From Candidatus Abyssobacteria bacterium SURF_5 (GTDB lineage Bacteria > Abyssobacteria > SURF-5): 17,931 bases of DNA. Within the stretch, counting starts at the first letter, position 1. The number at the start of each line of letters is the position of its first letter. The position numbers were made by a program, and so were the translations under genes. The DNA lies in NCBI GenBank assembly GCA_003598085.1, contig QZKU01000121.1, forward strand, positions 1 to 17,931, written 5' to 3'. Positions 7,378 through 16,801 of this stretch are shown here, in pieces. Under the pieces are notes generated by a model. The model saw nothing but the letters and a program-made list of their open reading frames with translations, was not told where the DNA came from and did not search any database.

Positions 7378-8001
7378 TCATCTCGCAGCAAAATTGGTCA
7401 AGTGGCCGGTGTCGTTCAATCGTACAATCACCGGGTGAGGCCACCTCTCGCCGATCTCAATCAGGTTCACCGCGCTCTCGTCCTGTCGCAAATGCCGGAA
7501 ATATTTCAGATCGAGATTCATAAGTCTGCAAAGCAGCGCCAGATTGCACAGGTTATGTCCGACAACGATCACATTCCCTGTTGGATACGCCTCAATGATT
7601 TCCGCCAGCGCATTCCATGCCCGCTCCTGCACCGCCCGCATCGATTCGCCGCCCGGTAGCACCAGGTCGGCCGGGTCGTGCATCCAGCGCTCCAGGAAAT
7701 CGGCATGAAGAGAGACCAGCTCCGAGAGAGTCAATCCCTCGAACTGCCCCTGGTTTATTTCGCGAAAACCATCCGACATCTTGACCGGTGCATCATGATA
7801 TCGTGCAATAATTCGGGCGGTTTCGGATGCGCGTTTCAATGTGCTCGAATAAATCGCCTCGAGCTTGATGCTGCTGAGTTGTCGCGCGAGTGATTCCGCC
7901 TGCAACCGCCCGGTGCCGTTCAATTCGCTATCGGTGAATCCCTGGCACCGTCGCTCGCAATTCCATGCGGTCTGTCCATGTCGGATTAAATATAATAGCA
8001 T
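7378..8001 (-). CDS. Histidine phosphatase family protein (phosphoglycerate mutase/CobC-like)
   Basis: A 207-residue cytosolic phosphatase of the branch-1 histidine phosphatase superfamily. LIRHGQTAWN carries the Arg7-His8-Gly motif with the phosphorylated His8. Arg57 in SSTLKRASETA, acidic Glu81 in REINQGQFEG and His149 in VVGHN complete the expected catalytic set. The QGFTDSELNGTG block is common to alpha-ribazole phosphatases (CobC) and broad-specificity GpmB-type phosphatases, so the substrate cannot be fixed from sequence. No cobalamin genes lie nearby. It sits between lepB and the M24 hydrolase on the same strand with short gaps, probably in the same transcript. The start ATG at 7999-8001 has only a weak ribosome-binding site, but it places the RHG motif at the normal distance from the N-terminus. 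Confidence 0.9.
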   Translation of the reverse strand: MLLYLIRHGQTAWNCERRCQGFTDSELNGTGRLQAESLARQLSSIKLEAIYSSTLKRASETARIIARYHDAPVKMSDGFREINQGQFEGLTLSELVSLHADFLERWMHDPADLVLPGGESMRAVQERAWNALAEIIEAYPTGNVIVVGHNLCNLALLCRLMNLDLKYFRHLRQDESAVNLIEIGERWPHPVIVRLNDTGHLTNFAAR

Positions 8002-8063
8002 AATGTACTTTTAATGAAACTTTCAGCAGGTCCCGGCATGATGCGCTGCAAAGCTGTCCCGTC

Positions 8064-8561
8064 TCAGTTTACCAGGCCGATTCTGTTTATCGGATTATAG
8101 ATGAACTTCACTTTTGCCTCGACAAGAGCAAACGGGATGGGTCCGAGGAACCTGCTGTCGAAGCTGTTGACTCTGTTATCGCCCAGAACAAAATACGCGT
8201 TTTCAGGAATCCTCTGCGAAACGATGGTATCCGTAGATCGATATTTGACGAAGGGCTCGTCCAGCAGGCGCCCGTTGATGTACACGTACCCATTGAACAT
8301 GGAAATGGTTTCTCCCGGCATTCCGATGACTCGTTTCACGTAGAAATCGTCTTCTCTCCCGCTGGTAAAAATGATGATGTCAAAACGCAGTATGTCTTCC
8401 GGATCGGCGGCGAATCCTGCGATATAATCGGACTGTTTCAGCGTCGGGCTCATCGACTCTGACGGGACGAGGTAAAATTTTATCTGTTTGATATCGAACA
8501 GGTAAAGGACAAGGGCGAAGAAAGCCAACGCCAGCCAAGGGGATAGGCGTCCTTTTTTCAT
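8064..8561 (-). CDS. lepB: Signal peptidase I
   Basis: A 165-residue type I signal peptidase (S26) that cleaves signal peptides of exported proteins on the outer face of the inner membrane. One N-terminal transmembrane helix (about 8-24) is followed by the box B segment LVPSESMSPTL with catalytic Ser36. Box D YVKRVIGMPGE carries the general base Lys76, and box E GDNRVNSFDSR is at about 127-137. It is short compared with E. coli LepB (about 324 residues) and nearer the compact single-helix form common in many bacteria. It lies 57 bases downstream of the NtrC-type regulator gene on the same strand. The start ATG 8559-8561 follows an A-rich stretch, with a G-run about 13 bases upstream. Confidence 0.95.
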   Translation of the reverse strand: MKKGRLSPWLALAFFALVLYLFDIKQIKFYLVPSESMSPTLKQSDYIAGFAADPEDILRFDIIIFTSGREDDFYVKRVIGMPGETISMFNGYVYINGRLLDEPFVKYRSTDTIVSQRIPENAYFVLGDNRVNSFDSRFLGPIPFALVEAKVKFIYNPINRIGLVN

Positions 8562-8618
8562 TTTTTTGCACGGTCCCCCCCACCGGATAATGGAATTTCG
8601 AATGTATTGTTTTTCAAT

Positions 8619-10022
8619 CTACTTCAGCCCCAGTTTTTTCATTTTTTTGTGGAGAGTGTTGCGGTTGATGCCAAGCATTTCAGCCGCTCGAAGTTGATTC
8701 CCCCTGCAGCGGGCCAAAATTTTTTGGATCAACGGTTTTTCCAGTCTCTCCAGCAACTGATCGTAAATGGCGATTTCAGACGATAAGGAGAGCAATTCTC
8801 GTTCCACCAGATCGCTCCACGAGGCGCCCGACTCAGCGGCGGGTTTCTGTCCGCCGGCGGGCAGGGCGAGCGCGATATGTTCGGTGGTTATCGTCTGTTC
8901 GATCTGCATTACCATGATTCTCTTGATCAGGTTTTCGAGTTCGCGCACGTTCCCGGGCCATGAATAGGCTTCGAGCAGTTCGAGTGCGGCTGGGTCTATA
9001 ACGCGCGGCTCGGTATTCATCTCATCTGCAAACCGCTGAATGAAATAAGCGGCAAGCTCGGGGATGTCTTCTTTCCGCTCCCGCAGAGGAGGCAGCTTTA
9101 TCGGCACGACATTCAACCGGTAGTACAGATCCTCTCGAAAGCGGCCTTCTGCGAGTTCGATATCGAGGTTCCGGTTTGTGGCCGCCACCACGCGCACGTC
9201 AACTTTCAGTGTGCCATGGCCGCCGACGGGCTCCACCTCGTGTTCCTGCAACACGCGCAGCAGTTTTCCCTGCAAATCGAGGCTGATGTCGGAAACCTCG
9301 TCAAGAAAGAGAGTGCCGCCTTGCGCCTGCACGAATTTGCCGGTGCGGTTGGAGGTGGCGCCGGTGAAGGCGCCTTTGATGTGTCCGAACATCTCGCTCT
9401 CCAGAAGGTTCTCGGGAATAGCGACGCAATTGACCGGCACAAATGGGCGCGATGAGCGGCGGCTGTTGTAATGAATTGCTCGCGCAACCATCTCCTTGCC
9501 GGTTCCGCTTTCGCCCTGAATCAGCACCGTTGCATCTTTATCTGCAACTCGACCAATCTTCTTATACACATCCTGCATTTTCTCGGATGTGCCGACGAGA
9601 TTGTTGATATCGTATTTGCGGCGAAGGTTAGCCCGCAACTCCAAATTTTCGCGGGCAAGCGCCTGAGCCTTCAGTGCTTTTTGAACCGTCAGCTCGAGCT
9701 GCTCGACATCAAACGGTTTGGTGAGGTAGTCGTACGCTCCCCATTTCATCGCTTCGATCGCCGTCATCATTGTTCCGTACGCCGTGATGATGATAACCGC
9801 GAGGTCGGGCTGAATCAGCCTGGCCTGAGAAAGCGCTTCCAGTCCACTCATTCCCGGCATGCGAATATCCATCAAGAGCACGTCATACGTCGATTCTCTC
9901 AGCTTCTGCAGTGCGTCGCCGGCGACCGCAACCGCGTCTGAATCGTATTTGGGCGGTGCAAACGTCTTGTTCAGCACCCACCTCATACTCTCGTCGTCGT
10001 CCGCGATCAGGATCCTTGCCAT
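8619..10022 (-). CDS. Sigma-54-dependent response regulator, NtrC type
   Basis: A 467-residue transcription activator. The receiver domain (1-120) has acidic Asp8-Asp10, phospho-acceptor Asp52 in LLMDIRMPG, Thr80 and Lys102. The central AAA+ domain (about 140-370) has Walker A GESGTGKE, the sigma-54-contacting GAFTGA loop, and the Walker B segment GGTLFLDEVSD. A Fis-type helix-turn-helix ends the protein (RAAEMLGINRNTLHKKMKKL). The KPLIQKILARCRGN linker before the helix-turn-helix is like NtrC (NR-I) proteins, but nitrogen control is not shown. The gene starts 16 bases after the kinase gene, so the two are a cognate pair. I saw no convincing sigma-54 (-24/-12) promoter in the intergenic regions, so its targets may lie outside the window. 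Confidence 0.93.
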   Translation of the reverse strand: MARILIADDDESMRWVLNKTFAPPKYDSDAVAVAGDALQKLRESTYDVLLMDIRMPGMSGLEALSQARLIQPDLAVIIITAYGTMMTAIEAMKWGAYDYLTKPFDVEQLELTVQKALKAQALARENLELRANLRRKYDINNLVGTSEKMQDVYKKIGRVADKDATVLIQGESGTGKEMVARAIHYNSRRSSRPFVPVNCVAIPENLLESEMFGHIKGAFTGATSNRTGKFVQAQGGTLFLDEVSDISLDLQGKLLRVLQEHEVEPVGGHGTLKVDVRVVAATNRNLDIELAEGRFREDLYYRLNVVPIKLPPLRERKEDIPELAAYFIQRFADEMNTEPRVIDPAALELLEAYSWPGNVRELENLIKRIMVMQIEQTITTEHIALALPAGGQKPAAESGASWSDLVERELLSLSSEIAIYDQLLERLEKPLIQKILARCRGNQLRAAEMLGINRNTLHKKMKKLGLK

Positions 10023-10038: not shown

Positions 10039-11667
10039 TCAAATATGCCCTCTGATCGATCTAAACGATATCGAAAACGTCGTCCCGATTCCCTCTCTGC
10101 TCATAACATCGATCGTTGCGCGGTGTTCCTCTATGATCCGATGCGAAAGCGCGAGACCGAGTCCGGTTCCCTCTTCGCGAGTTGTAAAGAAAGGCGTGAA
10201 CAATTGTTCCAGCGCCGCCGCGCTCATCCCGCAGCCGGTATCCGATATGTCGACAACCACCACGTTTCGATTCGAGCCCGGTGATTGAGCATCCACCGTT
10301 ACCGTGATTGAAAGTGTGCCTCCGCCGGGCATTGCCTGCAGGGCGTTGAGGAACAGGTTCAAAAAGACTTGCGTCAGTTGGCCGCCATCGGCCCGGATGA
10401 GCGGCACGGAGGGCGGGAACTTCTTGATGATCTGGAAGCCGCCGCGTTCGATATCCGGCTTCACGAGTTCAAGCGCCCGTTCCATTACCGGAATGATATT
10501 TGTCGGGACCATTTCGGTCTTCGAGGGGCGGGCAAAATCCAGGAGCTGTTTGACCGTACGATCCAGCCGATCGACCTCCTTGATGATGACATCCAGAAAA
10601 TCGCGGACACGCCTGTCATCCTGTATCTCGCGAAGAAGCAATTGTGAGGCGCCGCGGATGCATCCGAGCGGATTCCTGATCTCGTGAGCGACGCCCGCCG
10701 CCATTGTGCCGAGCGAAGCCAGCCGCTGGTTTCGCCGCGATTGCCGCTCGAGGCGCTTCACATCGGTCAGATCCTGCACGTTCACCACGATTGCCTGTAT
10801 GGCATTCGCTTCGTCGCAAACGATCGACCAGGTGAAAAGGACGGGTACGGGGTCCGGAGCGACTCCGAATATCTGCGTTTCGAAACTGGGGGCGGCGCCG
10901 GGGTCGTCATAGATTCTTTCAATGATGTTCAAGACGTTCTGGAACCGATTGAATACATCGAGATACAGTTTTCCCGCGACACTCTCGCGCTTCAACCCGA
11001 AAATCTGTTCTGCGGCGGGGTTCAGCGCCTGCACCAATCCTCTCGGATCGAGAACGAGCACGCCCTCGGGCATTCCTGCAAGTATTCGGTCGGTACGCTC
11101 CTTGAGGCTGACGACCTCGCTGATTGCGCCGTGCACGCGGACGGCCTGTGCGATCATGGAAGCGATGATGGTGAGGAAGCGCATGTCGCTCTCGAGCGTA
11201 TCGTCGCTGGAGCGCACCTTGTCGACGCTGAGCACGCCCATCACCTCGTTTTGCAGTTTCAGAGGAACGCACAGGAAAGCGATCATGTCCCTGTCGATGT
11301 TCTTTCGCGCGCCGGTGCGATCGAGAAACAGCGGTTCGCGCCCGATGCTGGGAACGATGACCGGTCCCCTCAACTCGACCACCTTTCCGGTGATCCCCTC
11401 GCCGATCTTGTACTTGCCGCGCTTCATCTCCTCCTCGGTCAACCCGTGGGCGACACGAATGATCAGTTCCTTGGTCTCCGGATCGAGCAGTGTCAGGGTT
11501 CCCCGCTCCATTCCGAAGCGAGAGGCGAGGATTTCCATGATCTGCTGGAAGGTTTCCGAGAGGTCATGCGATGCGCCCAGCTTCTCCGATATCGCCAGGA
11601 GAGCCTCGATTTCAGGGGTTCTCAAGCGAGAGGACTCAAGGGAGGAATTGCCGCGGGTCTCTGTCAT
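10039..11667 (-). CDS. GAF-PAS sensor histidine kinase, NtrB-like
   Basis: A 542-residue kinase with no obvious membrane helix, so probably cytoplasmic. An N-terminal GAF domain (about 22-180), of the type NifA-like proteins carry, is followed by a PAS domain (about 190-300) and a HisKA domain with phospho-acceptor His328 in VAHEIRNPLG. The ATPase domain has the N-box around Asn441, DTGCGM at 477-482 and GTGLGLA at 500-506. The sequence after His328 (RGASQLLLREIQ) is typical of NtrB. The GAF and PAS ligands cannot be read from sequence; no conserved haem or Fe-S cysteine cluster is evident. The start ATG overlaps the larE stop as ATGA (11664-11667), so translation is coupled to larE. Its partner regulator follows after 16 bases. 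Confidence 0.93.
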   Translation of the reverse strand: MTETRGNSSLESSRLRTPEIEALLAISEKLGASHDLSETFQQIMEILASRFGMERGTLTLLDPETKELIIRVAHGLTEEEMKRGKYKIGEGITGKVVELRGPVIVPSIGREPLFLDRTGARKNIDRDMIAFLCVPLKLQNEVMGVLSVDKVRSSDDTLESDMRFLTIIASMIAQAVRVHGAISEVVSLKERTDRILAGMPEGVLVLDPRGLVQALNPAAEQIFGLKRESVAGKLYLDVFNRFQNVLNIIERIYDDPGAAPSFETQIFGVAPDPVPVLFTWSIVCDEANAIQAIVVNVQDLTDVKRLERQSRRNQRLASLGTMAAGVAHEIRNPLGCIRGASQLLLREIQDDRRVRDFLDVIIKEVDRLDRTVKQLLDFARPSKTEMVPTNIIPVMERALELVKPDIERGGFQIIKKFPPSVPLIRADGGQLTQVFLNLFLNALQAMPGGGTLSITVTVDAQSPGSNRNVVVVDISDTGCGMSAAALEQLFTPFFTTREEGTGLGLALSHRIIEEHRATIDVMSREGIGTTFSISFRSIRGHI

Positions 11668-12482
11668 TTCTGGTCTTCGGAAAGAACCTCATTCATGCTG
11701 CCCGTCCGATAGCCTTCGAGGTCAAGCGTGATGTAGGTGTATCCGATTCGCTTCAGTTCGCCTACAATTTCAGCTATCAATGCCGTGTTAAAGAAAAGGC
11801 TCATCTCCGAAGGGGGCACTTCAATACGGGCTGTATGATCGTGATGGCGAACACGCACTTGTTTGAATCCTTTTCCGCGAAGGAACCGCTCCGCCGCATC
11901 CACCCGCTCGAGCTTATCCGCCGATATCTCTTGACCATACGGGAAGCGGGAGGAGAGACAGGCAAACGATGGCTTGTTCCAGGTCGGCAAATCCAATTCT
12001 TTTGAGAGCTGTCTGATATCCGATTTGGTCAGGCCGGCTTCGCGAAGAGGGCTTCGCACGCCCAACTCGACGGCGGCGCGGCCGCCGGGCCGGTAGTCGG
12101 CCTGATCGTCCAGGTTCGAGCCATCGACCACGGTGTTCAATCTCTCGGTTTTGGCTACCTTGACCAATTTGCCGAACAGTTCCCGCTTGCAATAATAACA
12201 GCGATTGGGAGGATTCTGGACAAATTCGGCGATTTCCGTTTCCTCCGACTCGATCACCAGGTGCCGCGCTCTCATCTGTCTGGCCAGCCGGCAGGCTTCC
12301 TCGAATTCGGCCTTAGGATAAGTTGAAGACGTCGCAGTTACGGCAAGCACATTTTGAGGACCGACCGCATCCAGCGCCGATCGTAGGAGAAATGTGCTGT
12401 CAACGCCGCCGGAGAAGGCGACCAGCATGCTTCCCATATCCTGCAAAATGCTCTGAAGCTTCTGTTTTTTTTCTTCCAACAT
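11664..12482 (-). CDS. larE: LarE-type ATP-dependent sulfur transferase (nickel-pincer cofactor synthesis)
   Basis: A 272-residue PP-loop ATPase with the SGGVDS motif at 24-29. LarE adenylates the carboxylates of pyridinium-3,5-biscarboxylic acid mononucleotide and puts sulfur on them, giving the dithiocarboxylate that binds nickel in lactate racemase and other LarA-family enzymes. Cys175 in FACLSSRFPYG matches the sacrificial Cys176 of the Lactiplantibacillus plantarum enzyme. A second cysteine pair, Cys95 and Cys98 in CYYCK, makes a three-cysteine set like LarE proteins reported to hold a [4Fe-4S] cluster; cluster binding here is inference. The conserved ending GYRTGSMNEVL is present. larA, larB and larC are not in the window. 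It has its own promoter, a mini-ORF leader, and an ATGA overlap with the kinase gene downstream. Confidence 0.9.
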   Translation of the reverse strand: MLEEKKQKLQSILQDMGSMLVAFSGGVDSTFLLRSALDAVGPQNVLAVTATSSTYPKAEFEEACRLARQMRARHLVIESEETEIAEFVQNPPNRCYYCKRELFGKLVKVAKTERLNTVVDGSNLDDQADYRPGGRAAVELGVRSPLREAGLTKSDIRQLSKELDLPTWNKPSFACLSSRFPYGQEISADKLERVDAAERFLRGKGFKQVRVRHHDHTARIEVPPSEMSLFFNTALIAEIVGELKRIGYTYITLDLEGYRTGSMNEVLSEDQK

Positions 12483-12521: not shown

Positions 12522-12550
12522 ACTATATCAGAGCAAAGAAATTGTGTCAA
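12522..12550 (-). promoter_or_regulatory. Near-consensus sigma-70 promoter for larE
   Basis: On the minus strand, -35 TTGACA (12545-12550) and -10 TATAGT (12522-12527) are separated by exactly 17 bases. Transcription would start near 12515, about 33 bases before the larE start codon. The gap after the CooC-like gene ends (12569) is A/T-rich, unlike the surrounding coding DNA. This would let larE and the two-component genes be expressed apart from the ACS-like/CooC-like pair. Confidence 0.75.
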
Positions 12551-12569: not shown

Positions 12570-13343
12570 TCAGAAGCTGTTTCCTGCGAGCATATCTCGC
12601 ACGGCGACGTAGGCGGGCGAATCGTCGGGGAGCTGTAGCAGGGGCCGACCTTGCATGTCGAAGGCGGCAACCGATTCGTCCTCGGGTATGCAGGCAAGCA
12701 GTTCAAGACCCGTCTGCTGCGCCAGCGCCCGCGCATGCGATTGATTGCGGACCCGGTTGAGGACGAGCCCGATCTTCTTATATTGAATGATCTTGTGTGA
12801 TTCAATGACCTCTCTTATGAGGGTCGCAGTCTGAAGGCCGCGGGCGGAGACGTCGGAAACAATGAGCGGGACGTCCACACTGCGGATGACCTGTCTGCTG
12901 ATTTGCTCGACGCCCGCTTCGCCATCAATGAGTATGATATCAAAGTAGGCCGCCATGCCTTTAATGCCTTCGCGCAACAGGTCATTGACCGGGCAATAGC
13001 AGCCCAACGACTCGGGGCGGCCCATCACGAGCATGCTGAATGAGTCTGTCTCGATCAGTGCTTCGAGGAGCAAGTAATCGAGAGAACGGGCAATGCTTTG
13101 CTTCTCTTTAGGACCGGCGGCGCGCGCTTCTCGAATGATTTTTTCCCTGACATCGTTGACGGTCATGCTGGGCTGAACTCCAACGGTGGCGGGGAGGCAC
13201 ATGGTAGGATCGGCATCGATGACGAGGAGCTTTCCCTGCCGGTTCTGAAGGTAATATTTTGTCAGCAAAGCAGTCAGCGCCGTTTTTCCGCTGCCGCCTT
13301 TGCCGCAGGCGGCAATCAGGCGCTTGCGCTGTGGCACATTCAT
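12570..13343 (-). CDS. CooC-like nickel-insertion ATPase (MinD/ParA-type P-loop)
   Basis: A 257-residue ATPase of the SIMIBI class. The deviant Walker A motif GKGGSGKT (14-21) has signature Lys15 and P-loop Lys20, and is followed by VIDADP. The CxC pair Cys115 and Cys117 in LGCYCPVN matches the metal-binding cysteines of CooC1, and IDGEAGVEQISR matches the CooC switch segment. CooC and AcsF proteins are dimeric ATPases that help load nickel into CO dehydrogenase or acetyl-CoA synthase. The gene's ATG overlaps the stop of the ACS-like gene as ATGA (13340-13343), and GAGGAAC lies about 10 bases before the ATG. No CODH is encoded in the window. The likely client is therefore the coupled ACS-like protein or an enzyme elsewhere; this is inference. 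Confidence 0.88.
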   Translation of the reverse strand: MNVPQRKRLIAACGKGGSGKTALTALLTKYYLQNRQGKLLVIDADPTMCLPATVGVQPSMTVNDVREKIIREARAAGPKEKQSIARSLDYLLLEALIETDSFSMLVMGRPESLGCYCPVNDLLREGIKGMAAYFDIILIDGEAGVEQISRQVIRSVDVPLIVSDVSARGLQTATLIREVIESHKIIQYKKIGLVLNRVRNQSHARALAQQTGLELLACIPEDESVAAFDMQGRPLLQLPDDSPAYVAVRDMLAGNSF

Positions 13344-14149
13344 TTTTCAGGTTCCTCGGGTTTCGCAGTTTCCTGTGTGGGCCGACTGCCGTCTCTTGCA
13401 AAAGTGATGATGCGATCGCCTTTGCGAATCGAGATGATTTCGCGGATATTATCGCAAACCGGCTTTTCGGGACATTCGGTGCAGTCGAGCCCCGTAGTGC
13501 ACTCGTAGGTTCCATCGGGCAGGCGCTGGTACGTCTGGATCTGCTCCAGCTCTTCCCGCGCCGGCTGAATGATTCCCTCCAGGGCGGCAACGTCCTCTTT
13601 GCATCTTGTCACGAAGAATACCTCGATTCCAGTGATGCCGGGGCATTGATCCTTGAGCGAGTTGCGGAGTTGCGAGCCCAACTTCTCGAGCGAGAAGCCG
13701 GAACCCGCCGCCTCTCTGCTCACGCGCGCCCACACCCGATTCGGAACGCTGCGCAGCATATAGCCGTCCATCTGGGATGAGGTATGAATGATGCGGTCCA
13801 TCGCCAGAGATATCTCGCCGGCGTCCTTTGTGCAAGAGCCGATTACCACCTGTGCAAACGGCAAGACTTTACCTTGGCTTTCGGGGATATCAGGACCGAG
13901 CATCGTCAAGCGTCCATCATCAACCAGTGAATGCTCGAGTGTGGCCGCGCACAGCGAGCATGAGCCGGCTGAAGGATGGCCGAGCTCAACGAAGGTATTC
14001 TCCTTAAAGATGATCGACGGCGCCGTCTGTTGAAGCTTTTCGGGCGGAGAAAGATCGATACGCGATGGCAAGAGAGCGGTACGAAATTCCTTTTCGTTGC
14101 TTCTCAGGTCGAACCATTCCCGCAGCGAAGTTATTGTTGCGTCAAACAT
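13340..14149 (-). CDS. Short acetyl-CoA synthase beta-subunit-like protein (CdhC/AcsB middle domain plus cysteine cluster)
   Basis: A 269-residue protein. Residues about 70-195 follow the middle domain of acetyl-CoA synthase: GRLTMLGPDIPES, a MDRIIH helix, RVWARVSREAAGSGFSLEKL, then GIEVFFVTRCKEDV, each with a counterpart in CdhC/AcsB. Near the C-terminus Cys217, Cys223, Cys226 and Cys232 (CTECPEKPVC) sit where the [4Fe-4S] part of the A-cluster begins in the full enzyme, with different spacing. The CGC motif that binds the distal nickel, and the rest of that domain, are missing. An added N-terminal CSLC pair (Cys64, Cys67) is seen. Catalysis as an acetyl-CoA synthase is therefore unlikely; a scaffold, carrier or maturation role is possible. 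An in-frame TAA two codons upstream fixes ATG 14147-14149 as the first start. It is coupled to the CooC-like gene. Confidence 0.8.
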   Translation of the reverse strand: MFDATITSLREWFDLRSNEKEFRTALLPSRIDLSPPEKLQQTAPSIIFKENTFVELGHPSAGSCSLCAATLEHSLVDDGRLTMLGPDIPESQGKVLPFAQVVIGSCTKDAGEISLAMDRIIHTSSQMDGYMLRSVPNRVWARVSREAAGSGFSLEKLGSQLRNSLKDQCPGITGIEVFFVTRCKEDVAALEGIIQPAREELEQIQTYQRLPDGTYECTTGLDCTECPEKPVCDNIREIISIRKGDRIITFARDGSRPTQETAKPEEPEK

Positions 14150-14346: not shown

Positions 14347-14820
14347 ATGAAAAAGCTCTCACTTGTTCCGAACTTGTGCACCGGCTGCCGGGAATGTCAA
14401 TTGATGTGTTCCCTGAAACACGCTGGGAGATTCAATCCCGCGGAAGCCCGGATTCGCATCGAGTATGATGTCGAGATGAACTGCTATAGTCCGGTGATTT
14501 GCCGGCAGTGCGATGAACCTGCGTGCGCTGATGCGTGCCCTTCGGAGGCGTTTTCCCGGGATGACCGGAGCGGGTCTCTCGTTATCGATGCAGAGAAGTG
14601 CTCGCTTTGTCTGCAGTGCGTGGACGCCTGTCCCTACGGCGCGATACGGGTTGCGCCCGATGGGACGGTTCTCAAATGCGACCTTTGCGGCGGTGATCCC
14701 GAGTGCGTGAAGTTCTGCTCGAAGCGCCCTGAAATGAGCAGCCCGCTGATGGCAAATCCCGAAGGCGCGACCGCCCTCATTCTCATTGAGAATGGAACGC
14801 CTGCGCCTGCTCAAGGATAA
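14347..14820 (+). CDS. Four-[4Fe-4S]-cluster ferredoxin-like electron-transfer subunit (HycB/DmsB type)
   Basis: A 157-residue protein with sixteen cysteines in four groups fit for four [4Fe-4S] clusters: 11/14/17/21, 52/55/60/64, 85/88/91/95 and 111/114/120/124, plus one extra Cys46. There is no twin-arginine or other signal peptide, so it is cytoplasmic. Such subunits accompany AOR-family enzymes (AorA-like) and carry electrons to ferredoxin or another acceptor. That role here follows from position, 16 bases before the AOR gene. I chose ATG 14347 because GGGAGG stands just before it and the promoter -10 box overlaps the alternative ATG at 14302. The C-terminal tail after about residue 130 is not iron-sulfur binding. 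Confidence 0.92.
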   Translation: MKKLSLVPNLCTGCRECQLMCSLKHAGRFNPAEARIRIEYDVEMNCYSPVICRQCDEPACADACPSEAFSRDDRSGSLVIDAEKCSLCLQCVDACPYGAIRVAPDGTVLKCDLCGGDPECVKFCSKRPEMSSPLMANPEGATALILIENGTPAPAQG

Positions 14821-14836
14821 AACAGGAGCACCGGAA

Positions 14837-16801
14837 ATGGATGGTTACGGCGACATTTTACGAGTGGACCTTACAAGCGGCCGCATCAAGCGCGAACCGA
14901 TTCCGCGAGGATTGATCAAGAAATTTGTGGGCGGAATGGGCATAAACGATTACCTTCTGTGGGAGCATTTCCTCGAGGTGAATCCGCACATCGACCCGCT
15001 CAGTCCCGACAATGTCCTCATCGCAGGCCTCGGACCGCTTGGCGGGACCGGCTTCGGACTCGGCAGCAAAATGAAATTCACCTTCAAGTCTCCGGTTACG
15101 GGCTTCTTCGGCGACAGTGCAAGCGGCGGCAATTTTGCCTCTCAGATGCGGTGGGCGGGCATTGACCATCTGGTGCTGACGGGTCGCGCAAAAAACCTCG
15201 TATATCTGTACATTGAGGATTCCCGCATCGAGATACGGGATGCTGAACACCTGCGGGGCCTCGGGACGCACGAGACCGTGAGGAAGCTGCGTTCCGGGGA
15301 AGTTCCCGCGGATGCCGGCATAGCGTGCATCGGGCCGGCCGGCGAGAACGGCGTCCGCTATGCCTCGATTGTTTCCACTGAGGAGCGGGTGGCAGGCCGC
15401 ACCGGTTCGGGCTGTGTTGCGGGAACCAAAAACTTGAAGGCGATTGTGGCCGTGGGGAGGCGCGGAATCCCGGTTCACGACTCGGCTGCGGCGCATGAAG
15501 CCGCTCTGAGAATCTTCAATGCGATCGATGCCGATCCGCTTGTGTACGTCTTCAAGAAGAACGGGACCTTCAACATGGTCGAGTTTTATGATGCGATCGG
15601 CGGCAACGCTTTTCGGAACAACCAGTTCTCGGATGTGCCCGATGATAAGATCCGGATGATGTCGCCCGACTGGTATTCTGCAAACATGAAACTGCGCGAC
15701 CTCGCTTGCTCGCCCGGCTGCACGTTCGGCTGCGATTCATCCTGCAAGATCAAGGGAGACGAAACCGAGCTTGCGAAACGACTGGAAAGCCCCGTGGGGG
15801 GCAGTCCCGAATATCTCACCATCGCCAGTTTCGGCATGGGATGCGACATTGCGGATATGACTGCGATTACCCACTTTCATCGATTGTGCAACGAGTACGG
15901 CATGGACCTTGGCGAAATCGGGGGGATAATACCTTTCCTCATGGAACTGTGGCAGCGTGGAATCATCACGGCGGAACACACGCGCCAATGGTTTGGTGAG
16001 CCTGTTTCGCTCGAGTGGGGCAATTTCGATGCGGTCGAGAAGATTATTCGCGCCGTCGCGCTCCAGGAAAACGAGTTGGGGATCATTTGCTCGCACAACA
16101 TACGAAAGACTGCCGAGGCCCTTGAAAAGATCACCGACCTGCCCACGATGCCGTACGTTGTCTGCGGCAAGGGCGGCGGCGCATTCCATGAGGAAATCCG
16201 GTCGTTCCCGATTTGGGCGGTCAATTTTGCCGTCGCCTCGAGAGGATGCGATCATCTGAAGGGGTTGAATATCATCGATAAGGGATTCCGGCAGGACATC
16301 TCAATGGCGTGGCTGGGGAAACCTGATGCGGGTATCGGATACACGCCCGATCTCAAGGGAGCCGCAGCCGCGCTTTCGGAGAATCATGCCGCCTCCATCA
16401 ATTGCCTGGGCATTTGCATCTTTCGCCCGGCCACCGATCCGTTATGCATGCCGCCGAAACTGTTCACAGATGCGTATGCTGCGCTCACGGGTCTTCCACT
16501 GGCGCCGGAGGAACTGCTGCTCGCGGGCGAGCGCGCCTGCAATCTTGAGAAGGCTTTTAATTCGCGCTTGGGATTGCGAAGGAGCGACGATGCTCTGTGC
16601 GCGCGCTGGATGGATGAGCCGGTAACCTTTGAGTACGGTTACGGCATGAAGGCGAGAGATTACCTCGATAACCTGCTTGACGAGTACTACGAGCGCCACG
16701 GCTGGGACAAGTATTCCTCGTTGCCGACCCGCAAGAAGCTCGAGACTCTCGAACTGGGCGACGTCGCCGATGTGCTGGCGAAAGAAGGCGCGCTCGTCTA
16801 G
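14837..16801 (+). CDS. Aldehyde:ferredoxin oxidoreductase superfamily protein (tungsten/molybdenum bis-pterin)
   Basis: A 654-residue protein. The N-terminal beta domain starts YGDILRVDLTSG and includes GFGLGSKMKFTFKSP and GFFGDSASGGNFASQMR, both typical of AOR. The iron-sulfur cysteines of AOR (CX2CX3C plus a late Cys) appear here as Cys291, Cys295, Cys299 and Cys303 (CX3CX3CX3C), with late candidates Cys523 and Cys527 in NCLGICIF. The family oxidises aldehydes or reduces acids with ferredoxin; members such as BamB instead reduce benzoyl-CoA. Which applies is not decidable here. I chose ATG 14837, with AGGAG eight bases upstream, rather than ATG 14786, which lies inside the ferredoxin gene and adds a non-family leader. 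The MoaD-like gene follows 21 bases later. The stop is TAG. Confidence 0.93.
   Translation: MDGYGDILRVDLTSGRIKREPIPRGLIKKFVGGMGINDYLLWEHFLEVNPHIDPLSPDNVLIAGLGPLGGTGFGLGSKMKFTFKSPVTGFFGDSASGGNFASQMRWAGIDHLVLTGRAKNLVYLYIEDSRIEIRDAEHLRGLGTHETVRKLRSGEVPADAGIACIGPAGENGVRYASIVSTEERVAGRTGSGCVAGTKNLKAIVAVGRRGIPVHDSAAAHEAALRIFNAIDADPLVYVFKKNGTFNMVEFYDAIGGNAFRNNQFSDVPDDKIRMMSPDWYSANMKLRDLACSPGCTFGCDSSCKIKGDETELAKRLESPVGGSPEYLTIASFGMGCDIADMTAITHFHRLCNEYGMDLGEIGGIIPFLMELWQRGIITAEHTRQWFGEPVSLEWGNFDAVEKIIRAVALQENELGIICSHNIRKTAEALEKITDLPTMPYVVCGKGGGAFHEEIRSFPIWAVNFAVASRGCDHLKGLNIIDKGFRQDISMAWLGKPDAGIGYTPDLKGAAAALSENHAASINCLGICIFRPATDPLCMPPKLFTDAYAALTGLPLAPEELLLAGERACNLEKAFNSRLGLRRSDDALCARWMDEPVTFEYGYGMKARDYLDNLLDEYYERHGWDKYSSLPTRKKLETLELGDVADVLAKEGALV

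Follow-up and report, generated by a model that had tools for sequence, protein, structure and literature searches.

A short acetyl-CoA-synthase-like protein and its CooC-type ATPase are linked to a separate branch of benzoyl-CoA-reductase-type enzymes

What is the role of a 269-residue protein that resembles only the middle of acetyl-CoA synthase (ACS; CdhC/AcsB), and whose gene runs directly into that of a CooC-like ATPase? The two genes lie in a stretch of DNA (the window) that is contig C121 in full (17,931 bases), part of a draft genome of 5.1 Mb (G000; 98.5% complete), whose nearest relative found is Candidatus Abyssobacteria SURF_17, of a lineage in which a complete Wood-Ljungdahl pathway has been described (PMC6121073). 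A sequence-only reading had proposed that the pair is a stand-alone module in a setting that lacks CODH and a complete ACS, possibly serving the divergent aldehyde:ferredoxin oxidoreductase (AOR) operon beside it. The absence of CODH and ACS holds for the contig but not for the genome, which encodes a full 733-residue ACS inside a normal CODH/ACS operon on another contig (C67, locus L027). Nor is a stand-alone module supported: in other genomes the partner is an operon for a reductase of the BCR/HAD type. Features of the window, and of two ACS genes discussed below, are collected in Table 1; no Rfam RNA was found in the window.

Table 1. Coordinates of features in the window and of two TGA-containing ACS genes from other genomes.
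Feature	Position	Strand	Basis or remark
LarE, sacrificial sulfur transferase, next downstream of CooC	11664..12482	-	TIGR00268, E 3.5e-104
Sigma-70-like promoter-like site ahead of LarE, TTGACA-17-TATAGT	12522..12550	-	Consensus match only
CooC-like MinD/ParA-class ATPase, 257 aa	12570..13343	-	3kje, E 1.5e-13; alignment
CxC metal motif, Cys115-Tyr-Cys117, of the CooC-like protein	12993..13001	-	Invariant in seven aligned S-linked homologues
P-loop GKGGSGKT, residues 14-21, of the CooC-like protein	13281..13304	-	Alignment
S, short ACS-like protein, 269 aa	13340..14149	-	N-terminal segment (MFDxxI..LREWF), ACS A2 domain and C-terminal Cys cluster
ATGA overlap, S stop and CooC start	13340..13343	-	Sequence; translational coupling likely
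Cys cluster of S, C217-x5-C223-x2-C226-x5-C232	13454..13501	-	Located where ACS has its A-cluster [4Fe-4S] ligands
CdhC/ACS A2-domain homology, S residues 47-182	13604..14011	-	Pfam PF03598, E 3.1e-12
Divergent 4Fe-4S protein and aldehyde:ferredoxin oxidoreductase family gene	14347..16801	+	Common only to G002; no conserved partner of S
TGA-containing ACS, L064 (G228, C49)	about 7720-9075	-	Normal ACS sequence on both sides
TGA-containing ACS, L025 (G088, C157)	about 8480-9887	-	Normal ACS sequence on both sides

The short protein, here called S, follows the middle domain of CdhC/AcsB, as had been read from the window. Beyond its Pfam match, comparison with solved ACS structures places the homology in the A2 domain; the best E-value was 9.5e-10 when S was searched alone and 8.7e-18 (against 9c0s) with the family profile, and ACS/CdhC were the sole matches of a ten-protein S profile among solved structures. 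S retains the invariant W-x-R and GPD motifs that belong to the A2 fold, and at the position of Trp418 in Moorella ACS, a proposed CoA contact, it has a methionine, which is also found there in archaeal-type CdhC. Comparison of open reading frames and domains found no A1 domain, CGC motif or further ACS sequence in S, and no further ACS sequence can follow it because the CooC gene overlaps its stop codon; that the protein ends before the CGC motif and that a CooC-like ATPase whose CxC site is intact starts within its stop were both read correctly from the window, and similar overlaps of the two genes occur at loci L024 and L063. An AlphaFold model of S built from two input sequences had a pLDDT of 33 and was unusable.

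The C-terminal cysteines tell S apart from ACS. Aligned with solved bacterial ACS, Y-x-C217, C223 and P-V-C232 of S fall on the Y-x-C, C and H-V-C of the synthase, while Cys226 is additional, and in the profile alignment S has neither the last A-cluster cysteine nor the CGC motif; three of the A-cluster [4Fe-4S] cysteines are thus aligned in part, at a spacing that is not that of ACS. The altered four-cysteine cluster noticed in the window is indeed present there, with all four residues in place, but across the family only Cys223, Cys226 and Cys232 (C-x2-C-x5-C) are invariant and Cys217 is missing in three of ten aligned members, so the four do not make up one family-wide site. By its sequence, S forms an old clade of its own that is related to the ACS A2 domain, and it ends just past the first A-cluster [4Fe-4S] ligands; with A2 only, no CGC and a clade of its own, it is not a normal synthase, as had been supposed.

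S is also a maintained family. A tree of the A2 region divided 11 S proteins and 32 ACS proteins into two groups with 100/100 support, bearing out the expectation of a distinct clade. Orthologues of S are 48-56% identical, and differences between members of the window's family at the three codon positions (0.32/0.24/0.65) are dominated by third positions. Because the clade is separate and the changes are concentrated at third codon positions, S is not a broken acsB, and a pseudogene or frameshift origin is ruled out; its orthologues and the single clade in ten genomes also speak against chance. These ten are among 386 genomes that span the bacterial domain (from a sample of about 390 genomes plus a few phyla, mostly drafts), and they fall into five groups: the window's family, the phylum of G041 (three genomes), that of G036 and G315, G258, and G376. 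Its occurrence in one of the 50 genomes of the phylum of G376 points to horizontal transfer of S. A tblastn search of plasmid records gave a single ACS-like match, which covered 59% of the query at 30% identity.

The conserved partner of S is a set of reductase genes. At each of the eight S loci found outside the Abyssubacteria family, and at that of its member G001, S lies beside genes for two HGD-D family proteins (PF06050) that we call N and O and a BcrA-type ATPase (A, PF01869, one or two copies), or beside N and O alone at a contig edge; PF03598 (S) and, at most loci, CbiA/CooC complete the set. N is BzdN-like (E 1.9e-55) and O is BzdO-like (E 5.1e-16). The gene order is N-O-A-A-S-C, C being CooC, in G036, G315 and one G041 locus. 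A class I benzoyl-CoA reductase (BCR) has four subunits, and N-O-A-A matches that make-up, with S and CooC added. The pairing with a CooC-type ATPase recurs as foreseen, though not at every locus: CooC is not adjacent to S on contig C73 of G041 and none was seen in G318 and G186, on contigs that end nearby. We found no paper on this combination of S, CooC and BCR-type genes in the literature searched.

Other proteins recur in or near these operons. One of roughly 200-220 residues is found in or beside S-N-O operons (L059 9469-10131 (+), L061 3091-3705 (+), L022 3624-4289 (-)); its L059 copy had no Pfam match, and by eye the protein is perhaps SCP2-like, which would hint at a lipid-like substrate. 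A flavoprotein oxidoreductase that looks GMC-like by eye follows clade-X N-O genes (the clade is defined below) in two unrelated genomes (L093 18688-20000 (+), L059 14504-15937 (+)).

Within the window's family the arrangement varies. In G001 the order is O, a molybdenum enzyme, N, A, S, C and LarE, the molybdenum enzyme being a molybdopterin oxidoreductase (PF00384; L020 4835-7741 (+)) inside the operon. The window and G002 retain just S and CooC, beside the AOR operon, with no N, O or A adjacent. The AOR of the window has aldehyde oxidoreductases as its nearest solved structures, and BamB is a weaker match. LarE, which belongs to the nickel-pincer (Lar) pathway, adjoins CooC in G000 and G001 and does not lie beside S outside the window's family; as it is preceded by its own promoter-like site it is probably a separate unit, and we rejected it as a certain member of the operon.

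The reductases linked to S form a branch of their own. Trees were built from 29 N proteins and 33 O proteins of these genomes. Each protein has a clade of 17 with 100/100 support, here called clade X, which holds all ten S-linked N/O copies and seven unlinked copies whose genomes carry S at another locus, including the copies on contigs C49 and C85 of the window genome. G000 has 16 matches to the HGD-D family in all, a large set of BCR/HAD-type reductases. An O-profile search of the 386 genomes found S in 10 of the 12 strict clade-X genomes and in none of the 374 others (Fisher p 4e-18, a value inflated by profile training and by relatedness, with five independent groups), and p was still 1e-6 after removal of the genomes used to train the profile. 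The two clade-X genomes without a detected S are G033, with N-O-O-CooC at a contig edge, and G228, which is 68% complete; related O proteins without a detected S occur in G088 as well as in G228. The partnership of S and CooC with clade X is well supported.

Residues around the metal clusters also set clade X apart. The BzdNO structure served as the basis for locating the six ligands of the [8Fe-9S] double cubane and the cysteines of the O cluster (PMC11971306). All six double-cubane cysteines are present in every clade-X N protein but one (16 of 17), and an equal share of the clade-X O proteins (16 of 17) retains the three O cysteines. In G376, the only closed genome with S (L062 5534-8027 (+)), N has glycine at the equivalent of Cys263, with one cysteine lost and one shifted, and O has a histidine in place of the third cluster cysteine, a sign of a diverged or altered cluster. 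Clade-X N proteins carry a histidine two residues after the Cys100 equivalent (16/17, against 0/12 other N proteins), and clade-X O proteins a histidine three residues before the Cys380 equivalent (17/17, against 1/16) and an extra cysteine slightly before that histidine (16/17, against 0/16). These clade-specific residues are possible extra metal ligands. Glu65 and His131 of BzdO are not conserved in clade-X O; the substrate is therefore probably not benzoyl-CoA, and we do not file clade X as a benzoyl-CoA reductase.

With about even confidence, we propose that S and CooC are an accessory pair for the maturation or activation of the clade-X ATP-driven BCR/HAD double-cubane reductase. S would hold an Fe-S unit, perhaps metal-capped, on its cysteine cluster and would act as a scaffold or docking partner, and CooC, by means of ATP and its CxC site, could load metal into the cluster of the reductase or rearrange it. 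In the window genome the pair seems to have become separated from N, O and A, and the clade-X copies on C49 and C85 are its likely clients. A role as metal or cluster carrier, one of those considered by the sequence-only reading, is still the likeliest for S, while the maturation role, the direction of transfer and the metal are what we infer from sequence comparison. As a short ACS-derived protein travels with a branch of reductases, part of the ACS machinery seems to have been reused for a different metal-cluster enzyme. Expression of just bzdNO in E. coli has yielded BzdNO with an intact double cubane (PMC11971306), and a classical BCR therefore needs no such maturase; any need for one would be special to clade X. 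A more specific form of the proposal would make clade X a branch of the BCR/HAD double-cubane reductases that contains nickel or is otherwise hetero-metallic, with S as scaffold for a Ni-Fe-S unit, CooC loading the metal and the clade-specific histidines holding it; this seems to us rather improbable.

Alternatively, S may be a working subunit of the reductase, its A2 domain binding CoA or an acyl group and its cysteines relaying electrons from the ATPase module to N/O, with CooC maturing S. In ACS, A2 is located at the CoA site, the W-x-R and GPD motifs are kept, S subclades track N/O subclades, and the linkage of S to N/O/A is as tight as that of CooC, three loci having S without an adjacent CooC. 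However, to our knowledge the class I BCR and HAD enzymes known so far work without an S-like subunit, the position of Trp418 is occupied by methionine (if also in archaeal-type CdhC), and the cysteine cluster varies between three and four residues, all of which makes this, the main rival, clearly less likely than the accessory role.

Three further explanations are less likely. Service to the adjacent tungsten AOR operon, with the pair as regulator or metal carrier, was suggested by the sequence-only reading; divergent ferredoxin-AOR genes lie beside S in both G000 and G002, and a molybdenum enzyme lies inside the G001 operon. Yet these two genomes of one family are the only ones with an adjacent AOR, none was seen at the eight loci outside it, and a Pfam domain search gave no DNA-binding family match for S. 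AOR is thus ruled out as the conserved partner of S, and we consider service to it very unlikely. That the pair instead assists the full CODH/ACS of its genome by loading nickel into the A-cluster, and adjoins other operons by chance, draws on the action of CooC-type proteins on CODH/ACS (PMC6006190) and on the full ACS encoded in seven of the ten S genomes. It is nevertheless highly improbable, given that no full ACS was found in the S genomes G376 (closed), G315 and G186 (draft), that most sampled ACS genomes lack S, and that no S was seen inside a CODH/ACS operon; the expectation that S occurs in genomes without a full ACS was accordingly borne out in G376 and G315 but not in those seven. 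Decay from acsB, which the shortness of S and its lack of distal-nickel ligands might suggest, has a negligible chance against one old clade over five groups with intact frames, third-position excess and invariant cysteines.

The survey of ACS sequences yielded a separate observation. In G228 and G088, which belong to two different families, full-length CdhC-type ACS genes read TGA-GGG-TGA in frame at precisely the codons of the distal-nickel CGC motif. Both genomes have a strong tRNA-Sec match (70.4 bits in G228 and 75.3 bits in G088, against a cut-off of 47), and a SECIS-like hairpin (-17.3 kcal/mol) follows the TGA site in G088. Taken together, the codons at the CGC position, the tRNA-Sec matches and the hairpin read as two selenocysteines on the distal nickel, and both distal-nickel ligands of these synthases are thus apparently selenocysteine. 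The ACS beta subunit is not named among selenoproteins in the selenoproteome reviews searched. The window genome also carries its own tRNA-Sec.

The association of S and CooC with clade X links CODH/ACS and the ATP-driven benzoyl-CoA-reductase-type enzymes, among the most reducing metalloenzyme systems known, through common parts. It also sets off a distinct group of double-cubane reductases that has accessory genes and a cluster environment of its own, and raises the testable question of whether any member of the BCR/HAD family contains a metal besides iron.

Each component has a known counterpart. S shares with CdhC/AcsB (PF03598; 1oao, 9c0s) the sequence of the A2 domain and a cysteine cluster right after it, where the A-cluster [4Fe-4S] ligands begin. 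Unlike the synthase, S lacks the A1 domain, the rest of A3 and the CGC distal-nickel site, has C-x5-C-x2-C-x5-C (or C-x2-C-x5-C alone) instead of the ACS spacing, carries its own N-terminal segment, lies outside CODH/ACS operons, so that neither CODH nor a corrinoid protein or methyltransferase is encoded with it, and forms one clade apart from all ACS. The CooC of CODH helps to insert nickel in an ATP-driven reaction, with two conserved cysteines binding metal between two monomers (PMC6006190). The window protein shares with such CooC/AcsF ATPases (3kje of C. hydrogenoformans) homology over its whole length, the deviant Walker A motif KGGxGKT and the CxC motif (CYC), whereas its family is linked to a BCR/HAD-type reductase and S instead of CODH. 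Clade X resembles BzdNOPQ/BcrCBAD, 2-hydroxyacyl-CoA dehydratase and DCCP (PMC11971306) in its two HGD-D subunits, BcrA-type ATPase(s) and six N cysteines, and mostly keeps the three O cysteines of class I BCR, but differs from class I BCR and HAD as a distinct clade with extra histidines beside cluster cysteines, without Glu65 and His131 of BzdO, and with S and CooC. The isoprene reductase operon of Acetobacterium wieringae (PMC10134865) likewise ties nickel chaperones, HypA and HypB, to a reductase without known nickel, although its FAD oxidoreductase and chaperones are unrelated to clade X, S and CooC.
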